DNA of 64,000 bases from Crossaster papposus. Lineage: Eukaryota; Echinodermata; Asteroidea; Velatida; Solasteridae. A program made the position numbers and the translations under genes. Position 1 is the first letter of the stretch. Every line of letters begins with the position of its first letter. The notes under the pieces were generated by a model. That model made no database searches and was not told where the DNA came from. It saw nothing but the letters and a program-made list of their open reading frames with translations. Positions 651 to 28,784 of this stretch are shown here, in pieces. Location of the stretch: positions 868,001 through 932,000 of the forward strand of contig JBAIAA010000433.1 of the NCBI GenBank assembly GCA_037893245.1. The letters run 5' to 3'.

Positions 651-1890
651 GACATTTTATCATTAAGTGATCAAATGCTTTATTCTCAGTAATTCTCTGT
701 TGGTGATTTTATTTAATGTGTGAAATAACTCCTCGGAAATTGTCACAGAATCACACTTGAAATATATCACAAATCAAATTAATTAACTGCGTTGTATAAA
801 GTTCGCCATAAGAAATTAGCTGTGATGTACATACAATTTGTTTGGATCGTCACTGTTAAAGTCCCATTGTAGAATTATGCTATTTACACACTGTGCATGC
901 ATGAATTCCTATGTATCCATGTGAAAGAATTACTGCACAAAATACCATTGCAAACTTTGTGGCAACACAGGATCCTGTGCTGACCATGAGCAGCCAATCA
1001 GCTGCGGGGTTGGCAAACTTTCTAATGAATATGCATTACCAGATGGTAGTATTATGTAGGCTTGTGTGTGTGGTACTTTGCAAAAGAACATTGCACTGTA
1101 TTACATAGAAACCCACTGTATGTTTATTGTGTGAATGTAGCCTTACTAAAAATTCAATAATTTGGAAGCAGTACACTATGAAGGTCTGAGTGTGTACATA
1201 AGTAAGGGCTTCTCTTGTACCAATGGCATTAGAAATTGGGGGGAAATTGATGATTCTGCACAGCATCAGCTTCTTAGGTGGGAAACTTGTTCATGGCTAT
1301 ACAGAGCTCTTTAACAGCTTTCTGGCCATGCATATATATCAACAATTTTGTTAGGATTTCTTGACAAAAATTGCATTTTACTTTTTGTAAAAAACACAAG
1401 ATTCTAAATAAGATACAGTGATATTACACTATATATGCAGGTTGTTAATTAGCCAATCAGATTAGAGGGTTTGGACCAATGAGAGCTTATGTTACACCAA
1501 ACTTTCAGCCAATGGGGCGACATCTTAGTCTGCTAGCTAGTTTTAGTGAAAAAATGTGTGCAATGTTTAAGCTCACTTTGTCACAGTCCTTTGTGCAAAG
1601 CACAACAATAACAATTAACTGTAAAATTTCCCACCTCCACCCCGTCACCTCCGTGCAACTTTGCATGGGGACAAATTATTTACCGGACTGTTTTTGCATT
1701 GTGAAATAAATTTACGTTTCATGCCCTACTTAATCACATTGGTTTCCTGGATGTTCACCAAGAGCCATATTATTCCTTCTGTTGGTTTAGACAAAGGATA
1801 ATTCTACTGTAATGTTAACTACATTAATTATAATGCCAATTATCTAACAAAGATTGACTTGGATGTTCTCTTGTACAATGGGGCATTTTT
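651..1890. other. spacer between the 650-bp repeats, no gene seen
   Basis: AT-rich sequence. Short open frames occur at 911-1108 and 1479-1709 but show no recognisable domain, splice structure or repeat homology. No primer-binding site follows copy 1 and no polypurine tract precedes copy 2. This argues for a 1,890-bp tandem duplication rather than a pair of LTRs. Confidence 0.6.
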
Positions 1891-2540
1891 GGACGGGAAT
1901 TTGACAGACACAGGTTAAAATATTTTCATGGCGCTATCGTAACAGCCAATAAGTCTATTCCAGTTAATATTAATTGCCATCATACAATGTACATAATATG
2001 ACAGTAATTTCAATTTGTTGTGACAGGCACTGTAATGGCTCCCTGGAAGTTCACCAGGGGTCATTCCTCCCGTAGCTCCTTGCGTTAAGCGGGGGAACAT
2101 CCGGTGCCTGGATGGTTTACTAGTTCAATTTTGATATTTTCATTCAAGAGTTTCTTAACCGGTGTTGAAATGCCTTTTCGTCTTGGATATTTTGTATGGC
2201 CTGGTGTTGCCATTTTGTTATGGTTATTGTGTCACATCCATTATGTAACTGGGTCGGGCGTGCCCTCGTTATCAGGGTCTGGTGTGCCCTATGTATCAGG
2301 GTCTGGTTGTGACAGGGTCTGGTGTGCCCTAATTTTATGGTGGGCCTGGTGTGCCCTATTCATGGCTGGGTTGGTAAACCCAGGGGGTCCGGTGTGCCCC
2401 ACTCTAATTCATTTGTTTGCCAGTTTGCCCATAGCAATGGTATCTGGCAATATTGTGTTTCAGAATAAAAATAGAGCTGTGGCATAATTCCATTCAAACA
2501 AGTTTATGGTGTGTCGATTATTTCATCAGTCTGAGAATAA
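1891..2540. repeat. 650-bp direct repeat, copy 2
   Basis: Second copy of the block at 1-650. Both copies share sequence up to CTGAGAATAA. Copy 1 then continues with GACATTTTAT, whereas copy 2 is abutted at 2541 by a piece of the Gypsy element 1 LTR. The right edge of this copy is therefore a junction with a retroelement. Confidence 0.9.
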
Positions 2541-2948
2541 CACGTACATGTATATTGTGCATGTGCTCTGGCAGAAACGCAACGCACGGCAACTGTCACC
2601 GCTAAACTTTTGACACTTCGACACAAGTTTCTAAACTCCAAAATAACACTTTTTGGTACCACGTTTTACATAAAAAGTACAATAGGCATGAGCCATAGAC
2701 CCAAGCGGACAAACTGGAAATAATAATGGACAAGTATCATTAGAGTGTAATCTCCAAAATCTAGGTTCAAATAATCAGTCAAAAATTGACGTTCTCACCT
2801 GTGAAAGATTGTGCAGGCAGTAAGGAGCCTTGGGTCATCGAACTTTTACATGAACATTATGTTAAAATAAAGGGCGCCATCGTTCAGCGGAGAGAGACAA
2901 AACAACTTATAAAAATTGAACAATAACAGCTAAGAACGCCTCCTCACA
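2541..2948 (-). mobile_element. truncated LTR of Gypsy family 1
   Basis: The block matches 17758-18078, the outer part of the LTR of Gypsy element 1, in the same orientation, with an extra stretch of about 90 bp near 2735-2822. On the minus strand it begins TGTGAGGAGGCG, the same LTR terminus as at 18078. The purine run immediately upstream on that strand (2949-2962) is a credible polypurine tract. I read it as a 3' LTR that has lost its distal half. Confidence 0.75.
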
Positions 2949-2962
2949 ACCTTCCCCGCCTT
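2949..2962 (-). other. polypurine tract next to truncated LTR
   Basis: On the minus strand the 14 bases are almost all purine (AAGGCGGGGAAGGT) and abut the TGTGAGG terminus of the LTR. That is the expected position of the primer for plus-strand DNA synthesis in an LTR retrotransposon. Confidence 0.55.
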
Positions 2963-4892
2963 GGAGTCATCGTCCCTTGATGACTCGGGGATATACATGA
3001 ATTAAACAATCGGTTAAACTAAGCTCCAAGTCTAGGCAAGATGTCACTCTTAGAATTAAGTGCTAAATCACACTAAGTGAGAACAAGGGTGCAATATTAA
3101 GTGCAGCCGGTCGCCAGAGGAATCCATTTTGATTCAGTCCAAAATAACTCGCAAATTCAGAAAATTCATGACTCACAAAACACGAGGAGTAACAAACGGT
3201 AAAAATACACAATGCAAAACAAGAGAGAAGCAACTCTCAAAATTGGTTAACAGGGCAACCGGCCAGAGTTAATATCACACTTGACTTATACGGTCAGCCT
3301 GTCTGGTGGCTTGCCACGAGTGGACCGCAGAGGGTAGCGGTGTGATGGGGCAGCCTCTTCCGCTGCACCAGCGTAGACTTCTGGCTTGACATCAATAGTG
3401 TGTGAGCTGCGGTCATCTGGGCTAGGGGCAGGAGTGATCTCCGGTACCGAGCCTGCGGTTGAACTAGGAACGCGAACAGGACGGAGAACACGGCTGTTTC
3501 ACACGCATAAAAGAGCGCCCTCGCTTGGTGAATTTTGGAGAGTTGGTTCTGAGCGTCCAAACGTATGACGTCATTATTTATAAAAAGAACGGCGCTCGAA
3601 ACGACGCCTTCGAGAGGTCATAACCTTCCCCTAATTCAGGTTTTTCATTGGCTGGTTGGGTATTTTTATGGAAATTTATTGTCAACTCTTAATTATATGG
3701 TCATACTAGTCTCTTCTCCGGTGAAATAACCCCGTATAGTAAACGATTTGAATGGAAGACTACGGTTTAAACACCTCGTGTTAAAACGGACGGCGCGTTG
3801 TTGTTTTCTGCGGATGCGTGGAAAAACAACCCCACAAAATCGTCATTTTAAAAAAAGCTGAGCATTCACCAGAGTTAATGAAGGAAATTGACGTCACGTT
3901 CGACATCATTCAACTTAGTAATATAAACGGTAAGTCTGGGACATTATGTTGTTTGAAGTAAATTTGGAAAGTAATCGCTGGTTTTTCGAGCATGATGAAG
4001 GCCGCGTGTACCGTTTGCGTATTCACATGTATGTACATGTGTACATGTACCCTATATTTTGTACGTGCTTGACGGGCTGGTGCCCATGAATTTTTTAATC
4101 ATGTTCATAAACCACATTTTGATTCCAATTATCTAGTTTTTATAGAGTTCGTCAGACATGTCAGAAAGGCTAGGCCTAATACTTTTAGTATTTTGAAATA
4201 TATTTGAGCCCTATTTAAAATTTAGACATGTTGATCATGTTGATCATGAAGTTTTTTTCATGGAAAAAATTACATAGGCTAATTAGTAATAATACTAGTA
4301 ACTAAGGGGATATAATCATGATGAAAATCCTATCATGGCATGCATGGTCAGAGGTCGGATTAATTGGTTATGTGACTATATGATGATGTACATGAGCTGT
4401 CGTTTCAACTCCAAGTACATGTAATGATGTTACCAGCCTGTAGGCCTATCATGAAGTATCATGTATACAGTTAAACCATGGAGCTATAAAAAAGAACGCA
4501 AACTGAACATGCGCTTATCCACGTAGACATACACGTACAAATCATCAGAGTTCAGACGTTTTTTTCTCCATTGCTTAACATACATGTATGCTATGCTCAT
4601 ACAGGGCATAATTTCTTTGACATACATCACGAGATTCGCAAGGATAACAAAAAGGGTGAATAATGGTTCTCAGTGTGCACATACAGTAGATATGGTGTTG
4701 TTTTTTTTGGGGGGGTGTCTTGGGAATTTCAAATCTACTTATATGCAACAAAAATGGAAACCTGAATAGGAAGTAAATAATTCACACCAGGCAAGTTAAA
4801 CTATATGAAGATCGGGTTAAATAACCTGTTTCTCGTCAACAGTCATGTTCCCTGAACATGTATTTATTATTTTTCTGAACTTTTTTTTCTTC
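2963..4892. other. no gene recognised; microsatellite-rich stretch
   Basis: This stretch lies between the truncated LTR and the 3' end of the RAG1-like transposase. It holds a perfect 8-bp stem with a 7-nt loop (GAGTCATC at 2964-2971 with GATGACTC at 2979-2986), TACATG-rich microsatellites near 4020-4050, and a T-rich tract near 4559. Short open frames at 3294-3560 (minus) and 4584-4769 (plus) have no recognisable domain. The left end of the RAG1-like element should fall here, but I could not define its terminal inverted repeat. Confidence 0.5.
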
Positions 4893-7800
4893 TCAACATT
4901 CATGTTTCCTGAAGGTTGATGCCATGTTTGCCAAGACTTCTGGCGTTGTGCTGACAAGATGCCTTCTCATGATGGCCATCAGTCGCTGGAGAGGATCTCT
5001 CATCCCATGCACCACCCTACCAGTCGTGTTGAAGTCCGTGTGAATCAGCTCACCTCCTTGTTCGTTTAGAAGGCCAAAGCCCACCCGGAATCTTTGGAGC
5101 TGCTCAACTGCGTGGTCTTCTAGGAGATGGAGTTTCGGTGAGATGTTCGTGCTTGGGAACGTTTCACGGAATGATTTCAAGAAATCCTTGATGCAGATAT
5201 CTACATTAAAACACAAAGAAATATGACTTACCGGTACTTTCTCACAAAAAAAAGATAAGTGATCACCATCAAGGTTGGAACTTGTCCACATGCAAAGAAC
5301 ATGTAAGTCTAGGTTTAGCCTACCAACACGGTGGATTTCCGGTAGCGAGAGTGCCCTTGCATGGTTGATGCCATGATGCACATCAGAGAATTTCAGAAAG
5401 ATGTCATGAAATTTCCTTTTGATGTGAGCCGATTCTCTGATTATGCGTTCTTGAGCTGCAAGGGTGATGTCATCGGTCATGTGATCCAGCATGACTTGCA
5501 TTGGAGCAGCAGTCAACGCATCAATGACTTCAACCTGTCACGGGAAAATGCAGATTATGTGACTTACATGTATGTGTACTGTATTTATTGGCATCATTGT
5601 GTATGCCCATAGATTTTTGGAAAGTCACATTAAATGACATTTCATGTAGTGTGCATGTAGTAATTGTCGTGAACTTACGGTGCAGCATCGATGTACGTGG
5701 TTGCCCACAAACGCTTTGCCATGGTAGGCTTGTCGCTGGACATGGAATTTGGACAGCACCCTGTCCAACGAGCTGACAACGGGACCCGTTCCAAAGGCAA
5801 GGTCTGCCTGACGCATTTCATCTTCCTGTGGAAAAACAAAATGTGAGCAATATTATCATCATTGTGCATGCACGGTGTATGTATGTACAACATAAAATGG
5901 TGAGTTAATTGAACATCTGTTGACACTATTGAGGCGACATCGTAATGACATGACTATGAAACTCACTAGGTCATGTACATCCACCCTCAGCTGATACGTC
6001 TCCTTTGCCAGCTGACAAAATTCTTCGTCAACATGCTGCTGCTCTGTGCGCTGCAGCACGAATAGTGGGAGATCCTCCTCTAACTCATCAAGACGGGATA
6101 TTTTCTCTCTCAGCTGCTGAGCAATGCTGTTTCGTTTCTTGACGCTGGTGGTTACTTGCTCGTCAAAATTAGTGCCGGCATTTTCATCTTCATCTTCTTC
6201 TGCTTCGGCTCTTAATTTGAAGAGGTGCTCGTCGAGTTTGTGCCAGTCACTCTCAAACAGGTCGCAGAGCTTCTTGAAAACTCCCAGTGAGATGTGTAGA
6301 CTTGGTAGTATTACTTGGTGATACATTAATGTACATAATTATTGTTGTGAACAAATTTGTGAACAAATTTATAATTCAAAATTATCTTCTACATGTGCAT
6401 GTTCATGTTGATCCATATGTGAGCATGCAAATGTATAAGTTTAAAAACAGTACATGTACTTGAAGGTAATACTACTGTATGTAGTTACATCTGACTTACA
6501 TGATCAACATCTATTGGCATAAGCGGTTCATTGACGACACTGAAAGACACATCCTTGGCCTGACTTCTTTTGGCACCGCTTCTGAGGAAGTCTTGATGTC
6601 TTTCTTTGATGGTGTGTAATGAACGCGCAGGGGAGGGTCCACGTTCCACTAAGGGTCGTTGCATCATTTCTTTTGATGCTGTGCAATAAATGCAACAGTA
6701 ACGAGCTGTAAAAAGGCATAACATATTGTGCGATTAAATTGGCAATGTTCATAATCTTTCCAGATGATGAATGTACTGCTTGTTATTAAATATACATGTA
6801 CATGTACTTACCATTGCAACTACAAAGACCATACATCTTGTTCAAGAGCTCGTAATCTCCAAAACAGAGAAGGCGAATGGACTTGTCTCTGCAAGATGTA
6901 CATGTATCCCCCCAAAAAAAAAAATTAATAACTAGTGTATTATAAAAAAAAGGGATTTCATCAAGTACATGTACTATTTTTACAGACTAACCTATCATGT
7001 GCATGTTTAAGGAAAATGTAAATGTCTCACCTCCACTTTGTCGATGAGAGAGCTGCTACCTGTTCCATGAGCTTGGGGAGTGTGCATTGCAAATTGACAA
7101 GGAAATCATTTCCCTCAAAAACACAGAACACCACGGTGTTACTAAGTGAATTGGGATGCGGCACATTCACTATCTGCAAGTCCATCTTGAATGATGTCCC
7201 GCCCTTGTCCCCACCGATTTTCAACCAGATTTCATTCTGGGGAATGACACCGTCATGCCATGTCAGAATTCCTGTGCTGTTAAAAGAAAGGCCATAAAAC
7301 ATTGCTGTCACTTCTTTGCACACAAAATAGAGCATTTCAATTGGATCAAAGTCATTTCAAAGTTAGCTTTGCTTACTCCCCTTGCTCATATTATTTACCT
7401 GTCAAGGCGGTCCAGGAAGTCCAAAATGAAGGAAGGCAGATGGTTGATGTAAACAAAGGGGGTTTCTTTTGTTACCATACCATTGATGCCATCTGCTTTA
7501 GGGGAGGGAAACAAAAGCTTGGTCAGTACCCCACACAGGTTGTCCTTGAGGAAGATGTCTTGTTGCTTTCTCATCTTTCTCTCGGATGCCACTTTGAAGC
7601 CTGCATTCAAATATCTGCAAATAAGTTTGTTAAACCTGTATATTATTCAATGTTTTACACAGAGTCAACTATTATTTGAGACATGGACAATTTTACGACC
7701 CTTATGATGTGCATCTTTTTAATGAGTCAATGAACATAAAATACGGAAAGCGCTGCAGTATGTAGTTAATGTTATCTACTTTGAATTAACACAAATATCA

Positions 7801-7994
7801 GTTAACTACAAAATTTATATAAATACATGTACCTACTCAGCTTACGAAGTTGGTCCCAGGCAAGGTCGCAGTCGCGCATCATAGCCAATGCTTGATTTGA
7901 AGTCATTGAACTCGGGCCCAGTCTCAGATGTAGTTGAAGCTCTGTGCTTGTCAGCAGACTTACTTGTTGTGGTCACTTTCTGAACTAAAGCAGG
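4893..7994 (-). CDS. RAG1/CMC-like DDE transposase core, exons 2-10
   Basis: This is the catalytic half of the gene whose first exon is 8515-9555. Reading down the minus strand, exons are: about 7994-7833 (exon 2, start uncertain), 7614-7399, 7276-7031, 6888-6812, 6705-6500, about 6318-5967, 5825-5679, 5534-5324 and 5200-4893. Each has GT and AG borders, except the acceptors of exon 2 and of the exon near 6318, which I could not fix. Phases agree across the well-defined junctions. Candidate catalytic acids are Asp in GGDKGG (7276-7031 exon), Asp in FGDYELL (6888-6812 exon) and Glu in NEQGGELIH (last exon). A CxxC (CIYC) followed by H-x5-H in the 6705-6500 exon matches the zinc-binding insertion layout of RAG1. 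Within exon 2 the family-like frame differs from the frame predicted by splicing from exon 1, so either an indel or another acceptor is present. With exon 1 the protein would be about 1,000 residues, close to RAG1 in size. Confidence 0.8.
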
Positions 7995-7999
7995 CTGAA

Positions 8000-8514
8000 A
8001 ATGAGTTTAAAATAGAGTTGTAATTTGTTTTATTATGTGTTTTTGTCTTGTAACAACATGCACACTGTGCTGTTCGTATGATTCTGGTTATCAATTGCTT
8101 GTGTTTTGTAAATAACTCATTTAACATAAAAGGAGCTGTACTTTTTTGTGAATCAAAATGTTATATGATATTTGTGCAATACAAAGAAATGTGAACTTCT
8201 TAAGAAATATTGAATTCAAGTGAAGGTGATATATATTATTATTGTTTTAAATTCAATGTTCTTATGTGGCAATTAGGTAAATACAGTAGTTTATGTAAAT
8301 ATTTTTGTAGCACCTTTAAATTGCCTCAAGGTCTCTTGACATTATTACGGGTACATAGAGATTTTTAAAGAAAATTTTGGAGAATATATCTATACTGTTT
8401 ATTAACATTTTGTAAGCTTTTTTTTTTTTACTGTTAACTATGTTAAATATTACTGTAATATCTGTTATATTTTATATTTATGTATTTTCCTGACAATATC
8501 AATTGACTACTTAC
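8000..8514 (-). other. first intron of the RAG1-like gene
   Basis: AT-rich sequence between the donor at 8514 (GTAAGT) and a candidate acceptor TTTTCAG at 7995. It contains a poly-T run near 8420 and no coding frame that continues the family. Confidence 0.6.
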
Positions 8515-9555
8515 TCGTCCACCGGTGTGAAGATAAGCCTTGTGCTCTTTGTGTTCTTGCAACTTGATCCAAGTCCACTTATCAGTGGCTTGCTCTATTT
8601 CAATGGGAATGGGGTTACCCTGTTGGTGCTCATTTGCAAGGGATTTAAGCAACCTTGCAGCATCAGTCACTTGTTTGTTGGGAGTTTCCGTGCTTTTTGC
8701 CTGGGACTCGCTAACACTGGAATTTGTTACTATGGTTACTCTTGGCTGAACCCTTACAGTCACTTCACAAGTGTGATCCACAATTTTGTGGATGTTACTG
8801 ATACGGCTGCAGTGGATACATGCAACATCCAAGCTATCAAGCTGAACACAAAGAACCCTCGGACTTGCAGTTACATTGTCAAAGTTGACCAGTTCCATGC
8901 AGACTGGGCACTTGAGTTCAGTCACTTTGTGATGTGTGAAGTAGGTCGACAAACATACTGCGCAATAATTATGCTGGCAAGGTGTCTGTACCGATGGTCT
9001 GCTCAGAATGCATAGGCAAATAGCACAAGTGAAAAGACTTTGTTCAACATGCCCAAAGACATCTAGGCTGGGTGGGACCTGCTGATGGGAAGTAGTCGTG
9101 GGCATTCGAAGATGACAGAATATATTTTCTGATGAACAGTCAAATGGAATAATTATTTGTGAGTCAATGACTTTCACAAGTTGCCCTCTTTTAGGCTTGA
9201 GGGGTGATGCTCGCGGACCCCCCTTGGACTGTTTTTGTTGCAAATCGCACACGTAGCAAAACCCTATCCTCTGGTGTTTTGGCCAGTTTGTCCGAATCTC
9301 CTGAGTTAACGATGCTTGCTTAAAGCTGTAATCTCGGGTACCTGCCCTCTGATGCCGAACCTTCCGTGCACACAGTTCACAAAGGTGATGGGGTTGTTGA
9401 TCTGGCGTGTCAGCCCATGTTGAAATTCCAAAAACAGTGTCGATTTCCTTGTTGTATTCTTTGCAGACCGTTGGTTTTCTCGTTGATGTTTTTACTCTAT
9501 TTGTACATATCCTACATATTTTTGTTAAACCTAACTGATGGAACTTGAAACTCAT
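8515..9555 (-). CDS. RAG1 N-terminal-like exon (zinc/RING region)
   Basis: First exon, 347 codons, ending at a GT donor (8514-8513, GTAAGT). The open frame reads through to about 8443, but that tail is intronic. Residues 14-17 (CRIC), 59-62 (CELC) and 100-103 (CYVC), with FGISTWAD between the first two, follow the pattern of the zinc-rich RAG1 N-terminus. Residues 177-219 form a C3HC4 RING (C177, C180, C193, H195, C198, C201, C216, C219). A further CxxC/His/Cys cluster at 246-263 corresponds to the zinc finger next to the RAG1 RING. In vertebrate RAG1 this region is a dimerisation and ubiquitin-ligase module. Similar N-terminal proteins occur in mobile elements of molluscs and other invertebrates (the N-RAG-TP group). 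I see no Kelch-type RAG2 partner nearby. The exon has no frameshift and looks functional. Confidence 0.88.
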
Positions 9556-10240
9556 ATTGAAAGAAGAATAAATATCCGATGAAGAACTGAAGTCAACTTA
9601 TATATTTGAGCAATAACTTGAATAATTTCAATTCCGTTGTCGACCCAGCCCCCAAAAAATCAATAAGAAACAACTCCAGCTACCCGTACTTCACATCAGT
9701 GGCCGATGTAAACAAGACACTTTATGTGTGTGTACGTACGTACATGTACATGTACATGTATTTCAATAGCTTAATACATATTTTTTGTTAAACCTAACTG
9801 ATGGAACTTGAAACTCATATTGAAAGAAGAATAAATATCCGATGAAGAACTGAAGTCAACTTATATATAAGAAACAACTCCAGCTACCCGTACTTCACAT
9901 CAGTGGCCGATGTAAACAAGACACTTTATGTGTGTGTACGTACGTACATGTACATGTACATGTATTTCAATAGCTTAATACATATTTTTTGTTAAACCTA
10001 ACTGATGGAACTTGAAACTCATATTGAAAGAAGAATAAATATCCGATGAAGAACTGAAGTCAACTTATATATTTGAGTAATAACTTGAATAATTTCAATT
10101 CCGTTGTCGACCCAGCCCCCAAAAAATCAATAAGAAACAACTCCAGCTACCCGTACTTCACATCAGTGGCCGATGTAAACAAGACACTTTATGTGTGTGT
10201 ACGTACGTACATGTACATGTACATGTATTTCAATAGCGCG
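9522..10240 (-). repeat. three tandem copies of the transposase 5' end
   Basis: Three copies of a 204-263-bp unit begin at about 9524, 9787 and 9991. Each contains, on the minus strand, an upstream TACATG run, a sequence ending in GAATAAATATCC, then an ATG and the first 11-12 codons of the RAG1-like protein. Only the inner copy (ATG at 9553-9555) continues into the gene. The outer ATGs (9816-9818 and 10020-10022) open short frames of about 15 codons that stop. The middle copy lacks about 60 bp found in the other two. This could be a subterminal repeat or a promoter array. Confidence 0.85.
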
Positions 10241-10823
10241 CGCTTCGCAGACAAATAACTGGTGCGCGCTATGTGTGTATATTTTAAATGAGATAGCTGT
10301 TGCTGTTGAGAACCAGCGAAACCATATTTTTTCTGCCGCGTATACGGCACTCGCTGCGTCGCGACGATGAAGAAAACTTAACGTTTTTCTTAAGTGTTTT
10401 CTATTAAAATACCAAAGTCCCAGAGTCCCCAGTAAGATTTTGTTATGTAAAATGTATGTGGTGACACGGTTTCGATGAATAAATGTCGTGGCTATGCTTT
10501 AATTGTTTATATTTGTGGGTTTTACAAAGTCATATTTTTCTCGTGTGTTCCAACACATCGATTGAATAAAGCACAAAACAAATCTTCCGATTTTAAATTT
10601 ACTCATATTTACTGGAAGCTATTGATAGATTCTGAGGTAGAAACTCGTATCAAAGGATTGCAGGGCTTAAGGGATCATTTGAATGATGATAACTTGTCCA
10701 ATTTACAAGTTTTGTCACCGTAGTACTTGGCCGAGTAGCGCAAAGCTTACTGCACAATGGCGGCCCACGAACGTACGCGCATCACATGATTGGAGTACAC
10801 ACGAATAGCACAACAAACGGATT
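10241..10823. other. no gene recognised between the RAG1-like element and Gypsy 1
   Basis: Contains a GCGCGC-rich imperfect palindrome at 10237-10270 and an open frame at 10475-10723 (plus, 82 codons) of no recognised family. No LTR or polypurine tract follows the integrase stop at 10824. Gypsy element 1 therefore does not end here in the usual way. Confidence 0.5.
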
Positions 10824-11915
10824 TCATAACTTGGCTAGCGCGTAACGCATAGCGCGTGAAACAGCCGTGAGAACATATCCTCTAGCGGATGGAGAGGAAT
10901 CTTCGTCGGATGAATAAAGTGCTGTATCGCTCACACTTGAAGGAGATAGGGCATTGTTTGGTGGCCATGGGCAGAGTTTCAGTTCACTGCGATGGAGAAC
11001 CTTTTCCTGATTCTGACGGTTGCGAACCACATATACCGGTTGTCCCTCAAATGGCTGTTTAACTATCATGAATGGCTCTTCCTCCCAGTAGTCTTGGATC
11101 TGTGAACGGCCTTTATGAGATCGGCAACGAATGAGGACATATTGCCCAACGCCAAGAGGTTTCTCAAACACCTTTCCAGCTCTTGCAGCCTTCCGAGCCG
11201 CCACCGCTCTATCTGTGTGTTGTATTGCCACTTTACGGGCAGCTTGCAACCTTGCCTGGTGTTGCAGGACATACAAGTCGATATCCTTGGCCTTGGAATG
11301 GGTGGCTTCCCCGCCTAAGTCTAGACTATGAGGAAACCGAGCATTCCTCCCAAACATTAGGAAGAAGGGGTCAACCCCAGTAGTTGAGTGTTCTGAGCTG
11401 TTGTAAGCGAAGACAAGTGCCTGTATGTATTCTGTCCACCTAGCCTTTTTCTTGGGAGGTAGTGACGCGAGCATGTTGTGGAGGGTGCGGTTGAACCGCT
11501 CGCACTGCCCATTTCCTGCTGGGTGATACGGTGTGGTGTGGCTTCGTTTAACTCCATATAATTCACACAACTCTGCGACAATATGGGACTCAAAATTGCG
11601 GCCATTGTCGGAGTGTAGTCCCAGTGGGCAGCCGTAGGGGATAAACACATGCTTGACAAGAGCTTTGGCGACCGTCGATGCTTTTTGGTCCTTGGTAGGG
11701 ATGGCCCATGCATACTTCGTAAATACGTCCGTGACGACGAGAACATTTTCATACCCATCGCCTGACGCCTCGAGGAGAGTAAAGTCCATAGCGAGCACTT
11801 CCATAGGAGCTGTTGCAGATATTGTGCCAAAGGGGGGTTTGGTCCGTCTTATAGGCGGTTTACTGACGCCACATCTCTTGCATGTGGTACACCACTGTTT
11901 GACAAAATCTTGCAT
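10824..11915 (-). pseudogene. Gypsy element 1 integrase core and C-terminus
   Basis: Frame of 363 codons. It begins with the second half of the HHCC zinc-binding region (CTTCKRC) and continues into the rve-type catalytic core. The DDE residues are visible: Asp in LAMDFT, Asp in LHSDNGRNF, and Glu in GQCERFNR, with 35 residues between the last two, the usual integrase spacing. A basic C-terminal region with a GPF/SH3-like segment (VGQYVLIR to YVVRNRQ) follows. It lies one frame away from the RNase H segment upstream, so a frameshift near 11.9 kb separates it from the rest of pol. I see no chromodomain. Confidence 0.9.
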
Positions 11916-12793
11916 GCCGTGCCAATATAATCTTGGCCAAATGAACTTGAAAGTGCGATGTGTCCAACCTCATCATGGAATCTGGTCAAGACTTCATCAC
12001 GAAGGAGTGATGGGAGTAGCAGCTGGTGATATGTTTGCTGGTCAGATGGCGATGTGACTCTACGGTATAGACACCCATCCTGAAGGAGCCGCAGAACATC
12101 ATGTGGGCAGCCAGCCCGCTCTCGGCGAGACGGTTGTTGCTTCCTCTCTACAAACTCAATGACCTTTCCCAAGGTGGGATCTGCTTGCTGTTTCTCTGTT
12201 ACTTGCCGAAGTGAGTATCCAGGCAGGCGGCTAGACCCTCCTGTACGACAAGCTTCAATGTGGTGACAGACGGCAGGGGGTAGTTGTGTGCCCGGCGAGT
12301 AGCTCCGGACACATGCTTGAATGGAACTCGAAGTTACAACAGGGCTCGTTGGGTGTTCAACTTGGACAACTTCACCAGCATCTTCCCCTTGGCCTTTCCT
12401 GGAAAGAACATCTGCGGCTTGATTGCATCTACCTGGCCTATAAACGAGCTCATACTCGAATGAACTCAATTGCTGAACCCACTTCATCTCTGTGCAGCCC
12501 AAGTTGGCTGTATCAAGGTACTTCAGGGGATGGTGATCTGTAACGACGAGACACTTATTGCCCAAGAGATAATCCTTGAAAACTTCCGTCACTGCCCACT
12601 TAATTGCTAACAGCTCCAGTTTAAATGCGCTGTAACGCCCAGACTTCTCAGCTACTCTCAGTGTGCGGGAAGCATATGCAATGGCATGGTGATTGCCCTC
12701 GTCATCCGTTTGGAACAAAACTGCACCAAGACCTGTGCTGCTTGCATCAGTCTCCACCCGGAAGGGTTTGGAAAAGTCAGCATAGGACAACAC
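11849..12793 (-). pseudogene. Gypsy element 1 RNase H and integrase zinc-finger start
   Basis: Frame of 314 codons continuing pol after the RT. It shows the RNase H pattern FRVETDAS, then SAFKLELLAIKWA, VVTDHHPLKYL and NQAADVLSR, followed by a linker and the first half of the integrase HHCC region (RFHDEVGH). Its frame differs from the RT segment upstream (a single-base shift near 12,975) and from the integrase core downstream. The copy therefore cannot make an intact polyprotein. Confidence 0.9.
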
Positions 12794-14721: not shown

Positions 14722-14797
14722 CCACAGTCTTTGAAAGGAAGTTGGATCCTAGCACTCCTGTTGAGCCATCTACTCCAACCTCTGCCGTATGGCTCAC
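14519..14797 (-). pseudogene. Gypsy element 1 aspartic protease segment
   Basis: Frame of 92 codons with the retropepsin-like pattern VNCLLDPGSQVTTV. DPGS stands where DTGS or DSGS is usual, so the active-site Thr/Ser is replaced by Pro. The flap region and the ILGMNVL motif lie in the next frame, after a shift near 14,560. Confidence 0.75.
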
Positions 14798-16182
14798 TAC
14801 AGAAGAGGGGGGAAGTTTCCCTGGCTCGAAGTGGTTGTCTGGTTTGTCTGTCTCTGCTCGCGTGATCCTCGTGTCGTACCGAAGGGAAGTGTGTCCTGGG
14901 GACCGCTCTGATGGGTACTAGAGCCGAAGGATATATCCACACCTGGGGGAGTGGCAAACTGGGCCTGCTGTGGTCGATATATGTTTGAACTCTGGCCCTG
15001 ATAGTACTTGTGGTCACGCCTTGGCCACTGAGGGGCGGAACTTTGTCTGCAGTGGCGAGCGATGTGTCCGAATTCACCACAACGGAAGCAGCCACGGGGT
15101 CTATCCCTTCCATATGGAGTCTGGCTTACTGGTGGCCCATGAGCACGGCTAGATGGGGGTTGAGCAATCTGCCGGACTGTCGCCACTACCTGGTTGGCCA
15201 TTTCTCTGAATGCCGACATCATCTCGTCACATGCCCTTTGGTCCGGTGACGTAGATGGGCGAGGGCTTCCAGGGAGTTGCATTGCGGCGTTGAATGCACT
15301 GCTGGCCTTGTTTCGGGCTTCCTCTCGTCCCTGGCGCTTGATTGCATACTCCCGTAGCTCTCTGAACGTCTCCATAGTGCCTTGTTCATATTGATCACGG
15401 CATGAGTTGCGAAGGTAGAGATCTTCGATGCCCTCTATAAACTGTTCTGCAAGCGTCGAGTCTGGAGTTGAGTAGAGCTTTGGGTCCCGGCGTGTCAGTC
15501 TCAAGAAGCGCTTCTCGATATCGACCGCATAGTCTCGGATCGCTTCTCCACTCTTCTGTCTCCGCTCAAGAAACATCCGCTGCAGTTCACCAACAGCTAA
15601 CTTGTCACTGTACGACTCGCGTAGGAACGCCATTATCTCGTCGACAGTCTTCTTCTCCACCAAGAGGGCCTTAACTTCAGCTTTCGGACCGCCGCGTAAA
15701 TAATCAAGAAGAAAGGCACCTCTCTGATCCTCGGGAATGGAGTAGCGTTTAAAGGCATTCTCCATACTAGTGATGAACTCGCGGACCTCTCCAACCTTCC
15801 CTTCAAATGTGGAGATTTTCCTCTCGGGGGTCATGACAAGTTGAGACTGTGGTTTCAGAAGCAGCTTCATCAATTGTGACTGAATGTCGAGAATAGTAGA
15901 ATCCTCTTTCTGAGAACTAGCTTGTTCTGGAAGAAGAACAGAGTAGGTGTGTTCTCCCCATCCTTCTTTGGGCGGCTTTATGATTTCCTCCTGGGCTGGG
16001 ACCACTACTTTGCTGTCGCCGTCTGGGTATAACAGTCCCGTAGCTGAGGGATATTGGGACTGGAGTACAGCCAAACTGAGGGTGCCATCATCTTCGTCCA
16101 GGGGGAATTGGTGGACAGTGGGGTCTTCCCCTTGGATCCTAATGTATGCCGCCATAGTGCTATCTGATATGCCTGTTTCCAA
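14797..16182 (-). CDS. Gypsy element 1 gag
   Basis: Open frame of 461 codons. A second ATG at codon 10 (16155) gives MAAYIRI and may be the real start. The middle (about residues 110-300) has the alpha-helical retrotransposon gag/capsid composition (ISTFEGKVGEVREFI, RSYSDKLAVGE-like). One CCHC zinc knuckle, CFRCGEFGHIARHC, lies at about residues 363-378. The C-terminal tail is Gln/Ser-rich. The frame is intact and overlaps the protease frame at its end. Confidence 0.92.
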   Translation of the reverse strand: METGISDSTMAAYIRIQGEDPTVHQFPLDEDDGTLSLAVLQSQYPSATGLLYPDGDSKVVVPAQEEIIKPPKEGWGEHTYSVLLPEQASSQKEDSTILDIQSQLMKLLLKPQSQLVMTPERKISTFEGKVGEVREFITSMENAFKRYSIPEDQRGAFLLDYLRGGPKAEVKALLVEKKTVDEIMAFLRESYSDKLAVGELQRMFLERRQKSGEAIRDYAVDIEKRFLRLTRRDPKLYSTPDSTLAEQFIEGIEDLYLRNSCRDQYEQGTMETFRELREYAIKRQGREEARNKASSAFNAAMQLPGSPRPSTSPDQRACDEMMSAFREMANQVVATVRQIAQPPSSRAHGPPVSQTPYGRDRPRGCFRCGEFGHIARHCRQSSAPQWPRRDHKYYQGQSSNIYRPQQAQFATPPGVDISFGSSTHQSGPQDTLPFGTTRGSREQRQTNQTTTSSQGNFPPLL

Positions 16183-17086
16183 AATATTAATATAAGGTAC
16201 TCAAGTCTATCAAAATACACAATGTAAGTGGTGTCCTCACAACACGGTAAAACGTTACATAGTACAGTATAACACTCTGACTGACAGCCTCAGCCAATTA
16301 CACAGTAACCACCAACCAATTTGATGGAGTGTTATACACTATGCACCAATTACATATCAAAACCTGTCACTGTACCAGGCACAAGCCTATTGATATGACA
16401 ATATTTAGGAACATCCAATACAACAATACACCAATCTATTGACACGACAATACTTCGGAACACGTAGTATGTCAATACACAAAATTCTATAAACACCAGA
16501 TATAAAACAAATGATCGGTGTAAGGTACAACCTCAATCTCAATTAAAAGAATTATGTAAAATAGTGTGAATTACACTAAAAACACAAAGCAAATATTTCC
16601 AAACAACAGTTCTTTCAGCTGCACCTATCAGTTTCTGACTGTAGGACTTCCAACACCGTTCTTGAGAACTGTAATGCAGTAGATCCCCAACAACAACGAC
16701 AAGTCCGATTACAATTATTAGTTCTTGCCTTACAATTAGCGATCCTCCAAAGCTGATGTAAACTGGTCACTCTTGCTTGACAGAATAAAAATGCTAAGTC
16801 CAGAAATTTCAATCGTAATAATCTGTTCTTGCTTTGCAATTATCAGATTTCCAAAGCTGATGTAAACTGGTAAGTCCTGCTCGAAAAAACTAAGTCCACA
16901 ACAGTTTTATCTTCAGTTGTTGCCGACAAGCCTAATATACATTTTCCGAAGAGCACTCTTCAACAGGATGACAAGTGACGACTTGAAGTCCACAGTAAAC
17001 TTGACTCTGGTACTGGTAACCAAATCCACAGACTGGCTGAGTATGCTGTTCGCCCTGCAACCTGTCTGGAGAAGCTTTAAAATCCC
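16183..17086 (-). other. Gypsy element 1 leader with tandem repeat
   Basis: About 900 bp of AT-rich leader between the primer-binding site and gag. It contains two copies of a roughly 108-bp unit (about 16710-16880) sharing CCAAAGCTGATGTAAACTGG. There is no coding frame of note. Confidence 0.6.
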
Positions 17087-17106: not shown

Positions 17107-18078
17107 TGTAAGGGGGGGGGGGGGGGGGGCTAGATCCGGGGCCGCGGTTACTCCCGGTGAAAGAGAGGACAAAGCACAGGTTCTTTCTGGGGTCTCTCTC
17201 CAGCCAGGGCCGGGTTTATTGTCGCATACGCCTGTGGGATACCTGCACAAACTGTGAAAGATTGTGCAGGCAGACAGACAAGATAATTATTTAGACAAAT
17301 TGTAATACATGAACAAATATGACTGACATTTGAAAGAATATCAACAAACTAAAAGTGACTGTATAATTACTTAAAATGCACATTAATAAAAATAAGAGTG
17401 ACTATAGTATTACTGTATCCAACTTGTTGTACCTTAATTTGTCTCCTTTTTCCAACAAACATTCCTTTCAACAAATGTCATCATCAATTTCTCAATAATT
17501 AAATATCCCAGATTATGTAGGTTGCAAAGATGCCACAGAAACGCTAGGCAGGAGGGGTATGGGACACAAACACACATCGCTGGGCCCAGCTGCACTCATT
17601 CACATACACAGAAAATACACGCCCATTCCCCCAAAGTCCAGCGCACCATAGCGACTTCCATGCAACCCGCCACAACCAGCAATGTATACATTGTAATTAA
17701 ATTATTATTCCACGCGCGCACAACAAGCCAACTGCCTCCACAAATCACCACGTACAGCACGTACATGTATATTGTGCATGTGCTCTGGCAGAAACGCAAC
17801 GCACGGCAACTGTCACCGCTAAACTTTTGACACTTCGACACAAGTTTCTAAACTCCAAAATAACACTTTTTGGTACCACGTTTTACATAAAAAGTACAAT
17901 AGGCATGAGCCATAGACCCAAGCGGACAAACTGGAAATAATAATGGACCTTGAGGAGCCTTGAGTCATCGAACTTTTACATGAACATTATGTTAAAATAA
18001 AGGGCGCCACCGTTCAGCGGAGAGAGACAAAACAACTTATAAAAATTGAACAATAACAGCTAAGAACGCCTCCTCACA
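17107..18078 (-). mobile_element. 5' LTR of Gypsy element 1 (972 bp)
   Basis: Bounded by TG...CA termini: TGTAAGG at 17107 and CCTCACA ending at 18078 on the plus strand. It abuts the primer-binding site and so is the 5' LTR of this minus-strand element. It holds a homopolymer G run (17112-17129), an 8-bp stem (CTGCACAA with TTGTGCAG) at about 17243-17269, and an outer part repeated at 2541-2948. It joins directly to a truncated LTR of element 2 at 18079. Confidence 0.82.
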
Positions 18079-18765
18079 TAACTATTTAACTAATTCGTCT
18101 GATATAAATCAATAAACTGCCACACCGCAGAACCTTGGGAATTACTCCGCGATCGTTAACCTTAACTTAAATTCGCATTAACCCTGCTGAAATTACTCCG
18201 GTAAATTAAAACCGCTAATGCTACGTCGGTAATTCAGCCCTGCTGCAATCACTCCGGTAGATTTAAACCGCTACTGCTACATCAGTTATCAGCCCTGCTG
18301 CAATTACTCCGGTAGATTAAAACCGCTACTGCTACGTCGGTAATCAGCCCTGCTGCAATTACTCCGGTATATTAAAACCGCTACTGCTACGTCGGTAATC
18401 AGCCCTGCTGCAATTACTCCGGTAGATTAAAACCGCTACTGCTACGTCGGTAATCAGCCCTGCTGCAATTACTCCGGTAGGTTTCTCTGTAACGTCAGTT
18501 TCCTCCCTTGGTACTCCGCCAGGTTCAACTGCCCGTTTTTACTCCGTCAGCTCCTTTCTGGTAACTGCCAGTACCCTTTAGGTACTCCACCAGGTTCAAC
18601 TGCCTCTTTTACTCCGTCAGCTCACTTCTGGTAGCTGTCAGTACCCACTAGGTACTCCGCCAGGTCCAACTGCGTCTAATACTTAGCGTGACTTCCCGGA
18701 GTCACCGGAGTTTCTTGAGTCGGAGTGAGTTGCCGCTACTTGGCCCCTTTGAACTAAATAGCACA
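18079..18765 (-). mobile_element. truncated LTR of Gypsy family 2
   Basis: Matches the inner two thirds of the LTR at 26845-28769 from TAACTATTTAACTAATTCG onward and ends at the same ...ACA terminus. The first 230 or so bases of that LTR are missing at the junction with Gypsy element 1. It contains about six copies of the 55-bp CTGCTGCAATTACTCCGGTA repeat and several tandem TACTCC-type repeats. Confidence 0.8.
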
Positions 18766-19438
18766 CTCGTCTCAGCTTACGGCAACTCATAACATTTAAT
18801 TATTATTCACAATATCAATGCACAATATAGTCGGAGCAATTAATAAATATACACAATAGGACCGGAGTTCTTGTAACCAGATTAAAGTTAGATAAATCCA
18901 TCCAATAATAAAGAATGAAATAAATAAATAAAGTGTGTGACAATCATTTGTGTGCAGAATCGGCCATAGATTCCAGCAAAAGTCAATTATTTGATCAGTG
19001 AGAATGAACAGATGAGCTTCGTACTAATTTAGCCCCCAGAGATAATAATACAGTTTTCTTACCTAAATAGCACACTCGTCTCAGCTTACGGCAACTGATT
19101 TAGGGCGCCGCGCACCGGTTTTCATACTTCCCGCTGCGCGTCAAAGAATTACACAATTGGTTCGAAAGTTGTTTACACATAGCAACCAAGATGGCGTCCC
19201 GGTAACACGGTATGTGAAATTAATCAAGTTACAAAGTTAAAGTGCACTTTATCATCATTTTAGAACAACAAATATTATCTAAGGAACTTATAATTACTAG
19301 CATCCAAATTATTAGGATAAATTAGCTAATTTTGGAAGTTTAAATCAATTAATACTAAGTGGGCACGTGGTCTGGAATGATGACGTCACAACACTCGAGC
19401 TTGTACTATAAATAAATGCTTCGCAAGTGATTCGTTTA
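18766..19438. other. no gene; short duplicated motif and TATA-like site
   Basis: The run CACACTCGTCTCAGCTTACG occurs at both ends of the 18754-19097 interval, so about 300 bp sits between direct repeats. A TATA-like CTATAAATA at about 19407 precedes the 161-bp repeat and may be an old LTR promoter. No coding frame was found. Confidence 0.5.
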
Positions 19439-21649: not shown

Positions 21650-24600
21650 CTATCTGTAGCGCTCAGGTGCAGTCCTGCGTCGTTCAGGATTACGGCGTAC
21701 AGTAACCCGTGTCGGTTTCTGAAGAAACTCCTCTGTCCCTTCTTCGCGAGTAGGTGCCTCGGACTGCAGCCAGCGTTCCACGGTTTTACCCTCATACAGT
21801 TTCAGGCGGTCGGCATGCACCACGAGCATCTTTCCTTTTGGCTTCGCCTGGATCCTGTAAATTACATCGGATAGTTTATTGATTATCAAGTATGGCCCCT
21901 CCCAAGGAGAGCTCAGTTTAGGACTATGTCCTCGTTTCTGGGCAGGGTTATGAAACCAAACGAACGTTCCTTCTTTCAGTTTACTAGTTTGGGCTTTCCG
22001 GTCGTAGTCCCTCTTTTGTCGTACAGCAGCTCCTTTTAAACACTCTCTAGCTTCAGTGTGTGCTTGCTGTATTCTCATGCGTAACATCTCTGCATAGTCC
22101 GCACCAGAGTCCAAATCGTCCTCGGTCCAAACTCTATCTGTTATTACATCTATCGGTAGAGTCAGATTCCGCCCAAGCATCATCATACTGGGTGTCTCTC
22201 CTGTTGATTCTTGGATAGACGTCCGGTAGGACAGGGTCGCATACGGTAGTTGATCATCCCAGTCTCTGTGGCATTTTACAGGATCAATCATAGAGGACAC
22301 AATATTCATCAAGGTTCGATTGAATCGTTCTACCATTCCATCCGATTTAGGATTATAACCGGTAGTTCTCGTTTTCCTGATACCAAGGTATTGGCAAACT
22401 CCTTGTATTACCCCAGCCCCAAAGTTCCGTCACTGGTCAGTGTGTAGTTCCTGTGGTACACCAAACCTGCAAATGAATTCTTCCACGAATACCCTTGCTA
22501 TGGTGTCAGCTTTCTGGTCTGGTATTGGGTACGCTTCCATCCACTTAGTAAAATAGTCGCCGATCACAAGTATGTACACATTACCCCTGTCAGTCTCTGG
22601 TAATGGCCCAAGTATGTCCATGGCTACTCGTTCAAGGGGGGCTCCAACTCGACACTGTTGTAGTGGTGCTCTAGCTTTCTTTGGAGGACATTTCCGTCGG
22701 GCACAAGTATCACATCTTCTGATAAATGAGCGAACATAAGCTGACAATCCAACCCAATAATATCTTGCCTTCACTTTCGCCAGCGTCTTTTTGAGGCCCA
22801 TGTGTCCAGCAGATTTTGCTCCGTGTAATTCTTCTAAGATGGTTTGTCTGTATTTTTGCGGCAGAATAACTTGCATCCTTGTTTGCATACCATTCGCTGA
22901 CTCCCATCTTTTACACAATACTCCACTGTGTACCTCCAGTTGGTCCCACTGTGACCAGTATGTTTTCACTGATGGCGAGTGTTGAGAAATCTTTTCCCAC
23001 TTTGGACGATCTCCAGGTGATTCTTCCTTTGCCGTACAAATATAGTTCATAGTTGGATCTTCTAGTTGTCCCTGACGGATGTCTGACGAGCTGATTTCTG
23101 GCTCCCAACACATTGCTCTGGTCCAATTATCCGCCACCTGCTCTTCTATTTTGGTTTCTTTCCTGGATTCGATACGTGTTGTATTTGGCACTTCCTTGTC
23201 CTCTGTCTTATGCCGGCCACACTGTTTACAGGGTCTCCGGGAGAGACCGTCTGCATTTCCATGCTGACGTCCCATCCTGTGTTCTATGGTGATGTCATAC
23301 TGTGCTATGACTTCCATCCAACGTGCTAACTGTCCTTCAGGATCACGAAAATTTGTCAGCCATCTCAAAGAGCCGTGGTCCGTCCGAACCAAAACTTTCC
23401 TACCATAGAGGTAGTGACGAAAATATCGGAGATATTGTACAACTGCTAAAAGTTCTCTCCTTGTCACACAGTAGTTCCGCTCCTGTGAGCTAAGGGTCTT
23501 GCTGGCGTAGGCTACTGCCACTTCGCGGCCGTCCTGTATCTGAGAAAGTACTGCTCCTGTCGGAAAATTACTAGCATCCGTGTCTAGAATGAAGTCTAGT
23601 CTTGGATCAGGATACGCCAGTATAGGTGATGAGATAAGTCTACTCTTCAACTCCAAAAATCCTTCCTCGCACTCCTCCGACCACTCGAATGCCCTATGCT
23701 TCTCTGTCAACTTATGAAGAGGCCGTGCTACGTCTGCAAAACTCTTTATGAATCTCCTGTAGTATGAAGCCAAGCCTAGAAAACTCCGGACTTCGCTTAC
23801 GTCTTTCGGCCGCGGCCATTCCTTGACCGTCTTTATTTTCTCTGGGTCTGTATGAATACCCTTCTCAGAAACAACATAACCAAGGTACAATACCTCTCGT
23901 TGATATAAGTGGCATTTTTTCGGTTTCAGCTTGAGTCCGGCCTTTCTCAGACGTTGAAAAACTATTCTTAGCCGTTCTGCCATCTCAGTAACCGTCTTGC
24001 CATACACTATGATGTCATCAAGGTATATTAAAAGAATGTCCCAGTGTAGACCAGCCATGATGCGTTCCATTAGTCTCTCAAAGGTCGATGGTGCGTTGGA
24101 CAGCCCGAATGGCATTACATTCCACGCATATAGTCCTCCCCTCACGGTAAAAGCCGATTTTCCCCTTGCCTCCTCGTCTAGCTCAACCTGCCAGTAGCCA
24201 GATGCCAGATCAAGAGTACTAAAACATTCTGAACCCGACAGTGCGTCCAACGATTCTTCGATCCTAGGGATTGGATACGCATCTTTGATGGTCACGGCAT
24301 TAAGTTTCCGATAGTCGATACAGAACCGTTTTGACCCATCCTTCTTTGTCACCAAGACTACTGGGGATGCCCCTGGACTGTCGGAAGGTTCGGTAAGTCT
24401 TCTCTCTAGCAAATCTCCTACTTGTCGGTTTATCTCCTCTTGTTGCCCCATTGGAGCTCTTCTAGGTGGTTGACGCAGTGGTGCTGCGTTACCAGTTTTT
24501 ATGTTGTGCTTGACTGCATTGGTGCGGCCTATGTCGTGGTCTCCTCTTGAAAATACATCTTGGAAGTCAATCAGCATCTTCTTCACTTGTGATTGGTGCT

Positions 24601-24908
24601 CTACATCTAGCTCCTTGCAACTTCTTGTGCACAAGTCGTTCAAATACTCAGGAACTTCAGCTTCGTTTTTCTTATCGTCAGGCTGTAGTTCTCTTATATT
24701 GCTCACTTGAATTGTCTGATCATGTGTTTGCGCAGGAGAAATTGTGCCCACGACAGTCCCCGCTCTCACTACTTGCTCCTCATCAGTAATATTAATTATT
24801 CTGGCATGTAACATACTTGGTTTCATACACACTAGTGTTCTTGCCAGCATTAGTCCTCTCCTCATTAGTTCTTCTCGTCCCGTTGGTTCAATTATGCCAC
24901 ACCCTTGT
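21650..24908 (-). pseudogene. Gypsy element 2 RT-RNase H-integrase
   Basis: One long pol frame with RT motifs FCIDYRKLN, STLDLASGYWQV, FGLSNAPSTF and YLDDIIVYGK (about 24012-24035). The RNase H part has FILDTDAS, RRELLAVVQYLRYF, VRTDHGSLRWL and NADGLSRR. An HHCC finger (HMGLKKT, CDTCARRKC) is followed by the integrase core, with Asp in AMDILGP, Asp in LHTD and Glu in VERFNRT, and a C-terminal domain ending near 21650. A single in-frame TGA at 22430-22432 interrupts the integrase core. The same frame resumes and stays open to 21650. The protease frame upstream is offset by one small indel near 24,900. Apart from these two lesions the reading frame is well preserved, so this copy is younger than element 1. 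Confidence 0.92.
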
Positions 24909-25580
24909 AGGGCTCGAGGTTTCCACTTTCATTACCGCCTCATGGCGTGCCGGTATAGTAATTGTCTTGCTTACCACTACTCTCGCACACAGTGGCAAGT
25001 CGCTATCATCTCTGCATGCGATCTGTTCGCCCTCTATTTTAAGTTGAAGCTGGTCGAAATTCAAAGTTCCCCCAGAAGCTAGCAGAAACTCCATTCCCAG
25101 GATTCCTTCCCAACTAATCTCGGCAACCGTTATATCCAGTGACTGACTCTTCTTTCCAACTTGAAGATTCATAACATTGTGTCCCCATGCCTCAACCGAA
25201 GTTCCGTGGGCTTGCTTTAAGCTACTCCCCATTGTTTCTAAAATCGGCTTTCTATCATCGGGTAGCTTCTGAAATGAAGTTGTAGATAAGACAGTCTGCG
25301 TTGACCCAGTGTCTAGAAGAAATTTCACTTTCAGGCCATTAATTATCACCGTCAGATAAATACCCGTATGTGCCCGTTCTTTGGCTGAATTTGTCTTTGT
25401 TGCATCAACATCCAACTTGTGATGTCTCTCTGTTTGTTCTACTGTTCGCTTCTCGGACCGTCTCTCCTGGACGACGTTCCCCCGGCCCGCTGGGTTCGTC
25501 CTGGAAAGTTTCCCTGCTCCCTTCTCAGTTGTACCTGACAATCTCGAGCAAAATGTCCCAGTTCTCCACAGTTGTAGCAT
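24888..25580 (-). CDS. Gypsy element 2 protease
   Basis: Frame of 230 codons. The aspartic protease domain has the catalytic FLLDTGSTQTVL and the C-terminal GILGMEFL motif. It overlaps the end of gag by about 140 bp in another frame, as expected if a frameshift joins gag and pol. It ends close to the RT frame, with an indel near 24,900 between them. Confidence 0.85.
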   Translation of the reverse strand: MLQLWRTGTFCSRLSGTTEKGAGKLSRTNPAGRGNVVQERRSEKRTVEQTERHHKLDVDATKTNSAKERAHTGIYLTVIINGLKVKFLLDTGSTQTVLSTTSFQKLPDDRKPILETMGSSLKQAHGTSVEAWGHNVMNLQVGKKSQSLDITVAEISWEGILGMEFLLASGGTLNFDQLQLKIEGEQIACRDDSDLPLCARVVVSKTITIPARHEAVMKVETSSPTRVWHN

Positions 25581-26220
25581 CTTCCTGCGCTACCGGTATC
25601 TCTTCTTGGCACAGTTCGGTATCCGGAATCTTGTCGGTGATGTTGGTTACTTCTTAACTCGTTTCTGATTTGGTCCACTGCTTCCACAACCCTTACCAGT
25701 GTGGTTTTCAACTCCGCGAACTCACTTGGCGACTTGTAACTCTGCTCTTTATCAGTCAGTGATCGAAAGAATTTGTTTGGTCTTCCCCGTTCTCTACATT
25801 TTTCAACTTTAACGAAAGACTCAGTGTCCAAGGCTGCTCTAATTGCTTCCTCTAGCGTTCCTGGGCGAGCTCGGAAAATACCCCCTCTTATTTCCGGGTC
25901 ATCAATTGCATCAGCAAAATGTCCCTTTGTCAGTCGTTCACGAACACCACCTGGTAATTCTGGGTACGCCATGGCCGACAAATCTCGAATGGCTTGGCCT
26001 AGCTCTTGTAAACTTTCACGTTGGCCTCTTTTCCGCAACCTCAGTTCTAGAAGGAAATTCTCCGCTTGCTCTCCTGGGCCGAATCGCTTCTCAAGTTGTG
26101 TACACAGTTGTGCATACGATGGGTACTCCTGCATGGAAAAGTTTCCAAGTACTTTCAGCGCTGGTCCCTGAAGTTTAGTAGCTAGTTGGTAGGAGGCTTC
26201 CTCTACTGACCATTTATTTA
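25439..26220 (-). CDS. Gypsy element 2 gag, C-terminal two thirds
   Basis: The frame from the first Met (26134) has 231 codons, and the same frame is open further upstream. It shows a gag-like helical region (LCTQLEKRFGPGEQAENFL) and one CCHC knuckle, CYNCGELGHFARDC, followed by an Arg/Gly/Gln-rich tail. The N-terminal part lies at about 26,221-26,790 in other frames. A start ATG near 26,790 opens a frame that stops after about 50 codons, so the 5' part of gag is damaged. Confidence 0.85.
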
Positions 26221-28769: not shown

Positions 28770-28784
28770 CTTGGTATATCAACG

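Follow-up and report, generated by a model that had tools for sequence, protein, structure and literature searches.

When a transposase carries the N-terminal region of RAG1, the enzyme that rearranges antibody genes, which kind of catalytic core did that region travel with, one like that of CMC elements or one like that of Transib? A locus of the asteroid Crossaster papposus raises this question. We analyzed a stretch of 64,000 nucleotides (the window; GenBank assembly GCA_037893245.1, contig JBAIAA010000433.1, positions 868,001 to 932,000 of the forward strand), in which the original prediction had placed, at 4893–9555, a largely intact spliced transposase with a full RAG1 N-terminal region. 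Almost certainly, positions 3489–10869 are a full-length but broken DNA transposon inside a Gypsy-type retrotransposon, with 18-bp inverted ends and a 4-bp target-site duplication (TSD), whose single recognizable gene, a spliced one, codes for a DDE transposase of the Chapaev type (DUF1280) with a zinc/RING region corresponding to RAG1 101–382 at its front. The element would have moved by cut-and-paste. The basis of this reading is computed: the ends, the TSDs in three copies, the empty site, the exon structure, the domain order, the N-terminal homology and the lesions.

The transposon, its gene and its siblings

The ends of the element were sought by scanning for inverted matches between positions 1500–4890 and 9556–12500. 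The best pair, terminal inverted repeats (TIRs) agreeing at 17 of 18 bases, scored 15, against 12 for the runner-up. The TIR pattern has no further occurrence in the window with up to three mismatches allowed, and two matches to it appeared in 0 of 100 shuffles. Removing 3489–10869 together with one TSD restores the Gypsy frame across the join (...SARGYVL/RPVRVPSS...), with a terminal stop only. Because the TIRs, the TSD and this reconstructed empty site agree, we take the element to measure 7381 bp. From splice signals and the reading frame we placed ten exons; the features are as follows (ORF, open reading frame).

3489..10869, minus: whole element, read as Chapaev-type, 7381 bp (18-bp TIRs, 4-bp TSD, empty site in Gypsy pol, siblings with identical ends)
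3489..3506, plus: TIR nearer the 3' end of the gene, CACGGCTGTTTCACACGC (inverted-match scan)
10852..10869, minus: TIR nearer the 5' end of the gene, CACGGCTGTTTCACGCGC (match to the other TIR)
3485..3488, plus: left TSD copy, AGAA (flank comparison)
10870..10873, plus: right TSD copy, AGAA (flank comparison)
10870..11969, minus: right part of the host site, a Gypsy-type integrase ORF (rve; Pfam, frame continuity)
3289..3488, minus: left part of the host site, the C-terminal end of that ORF (frame continuity)
9513..10237, minus: tandemly repeated 5' leader with first codons, three units
8515..9555, minus: exon 1, 347 aa; RAG1-type zinc motifs (residues about 5–110), RING (177–219), adjacent zinc finger (246–263), ends HTGGR (ORF, splice signals, profiles)
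7833..7994, minus: exon 2, frame changes within (splice signals, siblings)
7399..7614, minus: exon 3 (splice signals, sibling comparison)
7031..7276, minus: exon 4; DUF1280, first catalytic Asp (GGDKGG; Pfam, motif alignment)
6812..6888, minus: exon 5; second catalytic Asp (FGDYE; motif alignment)
6500..6705, minus: exon 6; C-x2-C (CCIYC; motif alignment)
5967..6314, minus: exon 7; LPSLHISLG, acceptor CAA (splice signals, sibling comparison)
5679..5825, minus: exon 8 (splice signals, sibling comparison)
5324..5534, minus: exon 9 (splice signals, sibling comparison)
4893..5200, minus: exon 10; H-x4-H, catalytic Glu (NEQGGELIH), stop (motif alignment)

The features named in the original prediction lie where it had put them, on the minus strand. 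Its spliced transposase is borne out, with nine exons downstream of the first where at least seven had been proposed, the LPSLHISLG block in exon 7, the NEQGGELIH block in exon 10, and GT...AG at eight of the nine introns. Its suggestion that the gene may still be expressible fails. Exon 2, entered as PALVQKV..., is left in another frame (SSMTSNQALAMM), measuring 162 nt against 161 nt in both siblings described below, and the acceptor of exon 7, the one exceptional splice site, is CAA. Because of this frame change and this lost acceptor, the window copy is not expressible as a full protein in its present state, and it is predicted to be silent. By eye, no alternative splicing of exons 2 and 7 preserved the frame; a systematic search was not made. 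The tandem leader is peculiar to the window copy, both siblings having a single unit; the two upstream units would yield short upstream ORFs (MSFKFHQLGLTKNMY).

Three protein searches returned 5, 6 and 6 matches, 14 proteins in total, with relatives in Asterias amurensis, Amphiura filiformis, Lineus longissimus, the eukprot entry Em0016g378a (which, judging by its code, we take to be perhaps from the sponge Ephydatia), and ENA and NCBI records. The best relative is P0001 (A. amurensis, “uncharacterized protein,” 989 aa, from a cluster of 20 sequences), which matches 100% of the model at 77% identity and reads through the positions of the exon 2 frame change and the exon 7 acceptor. P0002 (A. 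amurensis, uncharacterized in NCBI, 1025 aa) is 51% identical over the whole model, and both have RING and DUF1280 matches. In contrast to the window copy, these two are predicted as whole proteins, under source names without “transposase.” P0005, P0006 and P0008–P0013 are partial (<850 aa), and no RING was found in P0005, P0006 or P0008 as aligned. A match to a plant RING protein (E 2.2e-4) was set aside as RING-only.

The genome's own assembly (1.02 Gb, 1841 contigs), queried with the left 1402 bases of the element, gave five matching places, which we read as at least three copies: the window copy and one each on contigs C290 and C381. The C290 copy (L006) is 6909 bp long, about 98% identical, and has nine introns that are all GT...AG; once joined, its exons give 2961 nt of a single frame, interrupted by one internal stop at codon 150. 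Because these exons join in one frame and P0001 is so similar over the whole model, the observation is far beyond chance. To judge from its coordinates, the copy on C381, of which L007 contains the right end and L005 the left, is interrupted by two insertions, one of about 26 kb and one of about 6 kb. L007 lacks 2 nt of exon 1 and 9 nt of exon 6 and has CAC as its exon 7 acceptor; its exon 10 is mapped without the end. Thus the three copies are each broken in a different way, and none of the three examined in this genome is intact. All three have CAC...GTG termini and 4-bp TSDs (AGAA in the window, CCTA on C290, TCCA on C381). Chapaev TSDs are 4 bp long.

The ratio of nonsynonymous to synonymous rates (dN/dS) is 0.41 between the window copy and L006 (10 synonymous and 15 other changes in exons 1 and 3–10), 0.34 between the window copy and L007, and 0.23 between L006 and L007; the two pairs that include L007 compare only exons mapped to equal length and so leave out exons 1, 2, 6 and 10. 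The synonymous excess over neutrality gives binomial P values of 0.029, 0.025 and 0.011, respectively, uncorrected and from pairs that are not independent. Values below 1 are also what one would point to if this were a host gene domesticated from Chapaev and retained for function. That explanation has to contend, however, with the TIRs, the TSD and disabling lesions in all three copies, as well as with the insertion in a Gypsy element whose LTR-like (long terminal repeat-like) repeats, at 2541–2948 and 17758–18078, are identical at 315 of 317 aligned bases (unaligned, 91 bases in one and 4 in the other), and we regard it as extremely unlikely. Because the transposon sits within the Gypsy element, it was inserted after it. 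Its introns run in the direction of Gypsy transcription and are nonetheless retained, which argues that the transposon entered as DNA and did not arrive by way of reverse transcription. Inspection by eye revealed no 5-bp TSD for the Gypsy element.

We envisage that the DDE core would cut at the CAC ends and join them to 4-bp staggered targets. By analogy with the RAG1 RING, the N-terminal zinc modules and RING may serve subunit pairing or regulation, with no part in catalysis. Broken copies could have been moved in trans by intact ones.

The RAG1-type region and the core behind it

In exon 1, the original prediction had recognized the zinc-binding pairs, C3HC4 RING and adjacent zinc finger of RAG1. 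All three hold: when exon 1 is aligned with five relatives, C14, C59, C62, W91, C100 and C103 are invariant, as are the RING cysteines C177, C180, C193, C198, C201, C216 and C219 and, in the finger after the RING, C246, C249 and H261. When the model and four relatives were combined into a profile (A2) and searched against the PDB, mouse RAG1 was the top match (E 5.2e-18), so that the significant RAG1 N-terminal match expected of exon 1 is present; profile positions 5–273 correspond to RAG1 101–382. The region is not “full,” however, since the profile alignment showed no counterpart of RAG1 1–100.

Could these be chance or convergent motifs, a common RING plus some cysteines? Exon 1 as a single sequence mostly matches RINGs in the PDB (TRIM2, TRAF6), with RAG1 at only E 0.0062, and profiles are needed to separate RAG1 from them. 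Its own structure model is poor (mean predicted local distance difference test score 47.9; residues 1–80 mostly 58–84, the remainder mostly lower); with it, Foldseek gave no match at E ≤ 0.001, the best being RNF125 (0.036) and TRAF6 (0.049), and RAG1 was absent among the 50 matches listed by VIA. Against this, RAG1 stands first among PDB sequences in the profile searches, and the part before the RING suffices to find it: a six-sequence profile of that part (A6) matches the RAG1 N-terminal chain 21wb at E 1.3e-10 and full-length RAG1 at E 1.5e-8, the next match being a ZAD domain at E 0.0099. Moreover, the score was reached in 0 of 200 shuffles with cysteines fixed, and Pfam RAG1_imp_bd is above cut-off in two of the six members scanned (P0003 and P0004), although it is not listed for the exon 1 of the window. 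Chance or convergence is therefore hardly credible.

As a separate observation, the first zinc domain (9331–9531, minus strand; exon 1 residues 9–75) and its mouse RAG1 counterpart resemble the arthropod ZAD, below curated cut-offs and more weakly in one comparison. The Pfam zf-AD cut-off of 28 bits was not reached, the best score being 20.9 bits (P0007), with 17.3 for the mouse RAG1 stretch.

Behind the N-terminal region, the segment 7027–7356 around exon 4 matches DUF1280 (PF06918) at E 3.6e-15 and 56.6 bits (cut-off 25). Published accounts give DUF1280 as the Chapaev transposase, and CMCT elements as having 5'-CA...TG-3' termini, TSDs of 2–5 bp, and a DDE triad with C(2)C and H(3–4)H between the second D and the E. 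The element has the DUF1280 core, CA...TG termini with a short TSD, and, in the numbering of the 979-aa model, D489, D559, C578-x2-C581, H902-x4-H907 and E928. The motifs follow the order of the RAG1 core, as had been proposed; of the predicted DDE core with CIYC/H-x5-H insertion, the triad, the C-x2-C and the histidine pair were found, the histidine spacing being x4 and not x5. By the DUF1280 match, then, the RAG1 N-terminal region is joined at this locus to what sequence comparison identifies as a CMC (Chapaev) core. The expectation that the locus could test which core it travelled with is borne out to that extent, the question having been largely answered in print in 2015 (PMC4411706).

The core nevertheless resembles that of RAG1. 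In a structure model of a relative, its fold is predicted to be the RAG1/Transib fold, and its best structural match is RAG1. In hhalign, whose E values are single comparisons, a family profile (A4) and mouse RAG1 form a single collinear alignment of 599 columns (RAG1 102–811, probability 99.0, E 2.3e-18), with significance mostly from the N terminus; at low stringency, the alignment includes the GGRP with which the RAG1 core string begins.

These likenesses bring forward the alternative of a RAGL/ProtoRAG (RAG1L) transposon, which would be directly related to the vertebrate RAG locus. The RAGL N-terminal zinc motif and RING/ZDD are indeed here, and the structural match agrees. However, the core is DUF1280 and not PF12940 in the window and in five of five relatives (Pfam); PF12940 was unlisted for eight transposase segments (of nine proteins; E up to 10, most above 0.1 filtered) and for the five relatives (E up to 1). 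A PF12940 search across the own genome gave no match and is uninformative, the control likewise matching nowhere. In addition, the TSD is 4 bp and not 5 in three of three copies, the structural alignment with RAG1 shows 15% identity, and no Kelch match occurred among 10 chosen flank ORFs (58–111 aa), which short exons could escape. A RAGL identity thus seems very unlikely. A Transib identity, which calls for 5-bp TSDs and no RAG1 N-terminal region, was rejected.

Several points count against our reading of a Chapaev element with a RAG1-type front. The N-terminal parts of both structure models are of low confidence. The core-only profile matches RAG1 weakly (hhalign probability 11.6%, P 0.0026), yet above all 50 shuffles, and because of this weakness the relationship of the core with RAG1 rests more on fold and motif register. 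The final third of RAG1 (850–1001) aligned only as a separate stretch (E 0.14). Finally, dN/dS is built on 13–25 substitutions per pair, from three pairs that are not independent.

Other features of the window

The gag ORF of the Gypsy host (14797–16200, minus strand) encodes the N-terminal domain of TDP-43 (Pfam TDP-43_N, E 2.8e-12; best PDB TDP-43 chain, E 5.3e-07), a domain of an animal RNA-binding protein within a retrotransposon; among the papers listed by a literature search, none reports this by its title. A perfect 650-bp direct repeat (1–650 and 1891–2540) ends where the Gypsy LTR-like repeat starts and may be real or an assembly effect. A second Gypsy-type element (21650–26257, minus strand) has reverse transcriptase, RNase H and integrase matches in 22430–24928, a gag zinc knuckle seen by eye, and related repeats at 18079–18767 and 27073–28771. 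From 54457 to the window end at 64000 runs a higher-order tandem array with a period of about 3926 bp and 99.9% identity over 5618 bases.

Comparison with known systems

The kind of element is already known in print: Kapitonov and Koonin (2015; PMC4411706) describe a Chapa domain plus RING in two Chapaev subgroups. Those Chapaevs and the window element share a RAG1-type N-terminal zinc domain, then a RING, on a Chapaev core. The present case differs in its record of ends, TSDs and lesions for three copies within a single genome; we liken the element to the kind, not to a subgroup. No description of this particular element was found, judging by titles and abstract openings of open-licence PMC papers.

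How RAG1 came by its N terminus is disputed, and the long collinear RAG1 match bears on the dispute. PMC8355894 favors fusion of N-RAG-TP with Transib, and PMC4411706 proposes that a common ancestor already had Chapa and RING joined to the core; Transibs are reported to have 5-bp TSDs (PMC4411706) and no RAG1 N-terminal region (PMC7204232). The locus agrees with the common-ancestor view without proving it. It is conceivable, and we put it forward tentatively, that RAG1 and the Chapaev transposase share one architecture (zinc domain, RING, adjacent finger, GGRP, dimerization/DNA-binding region, core), so that the RAG1 N terminus and core would have been inherited together from a common Chapaev–Transib ancestor and not by N-RAG/Transib fusion, and that transposase subunits pair through the first zinc domain, which would then be of the ZAD type found elsewhere in arthropod transcription factors. 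The ZAD lead, if true, would name a role for a little-understood part of RAG1.

N-RAG-TP of Aplysia californica, said to have been reported by Panchin and Moroz in 2008, reportedly places RAG1 N-terminal-like sequence in a mobile element. Compared by description, both are mobile and carry such sequence, and the window element has a full DDE core; no Aplysia-named match was among the 14 proteins.

With RAG1 and ProtoRAG RAG1L, the window element shares the order of zinc motifs, RING and core, a DDE triad with C-x2-C and H-x4-H, and the predicted fold; it differs in its DUF1280 core, its 4-bp TSD and, in the flank ORFs searched (short exons aside), the lack of a RAG2-like (Kelch) match. PMC7204232 and PMC9885083 report echinoderm or echinoid RAG1L without RING/ZDD, although PMC9885083 elsewhere mentions an N-terminal stretch that contains the ZDD. 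The window element has what these RAG1L are reported to lack. It offers a bounded example, in three copies of one genome, of a RAG1 N-terminal region on a CMC (Chapaev) core in an echinoderm, a group in which a RING-bearing RAG1 N terminus is thus carried by a Chapaev, while its RAG1L reportedly lack the RING/ZDD.

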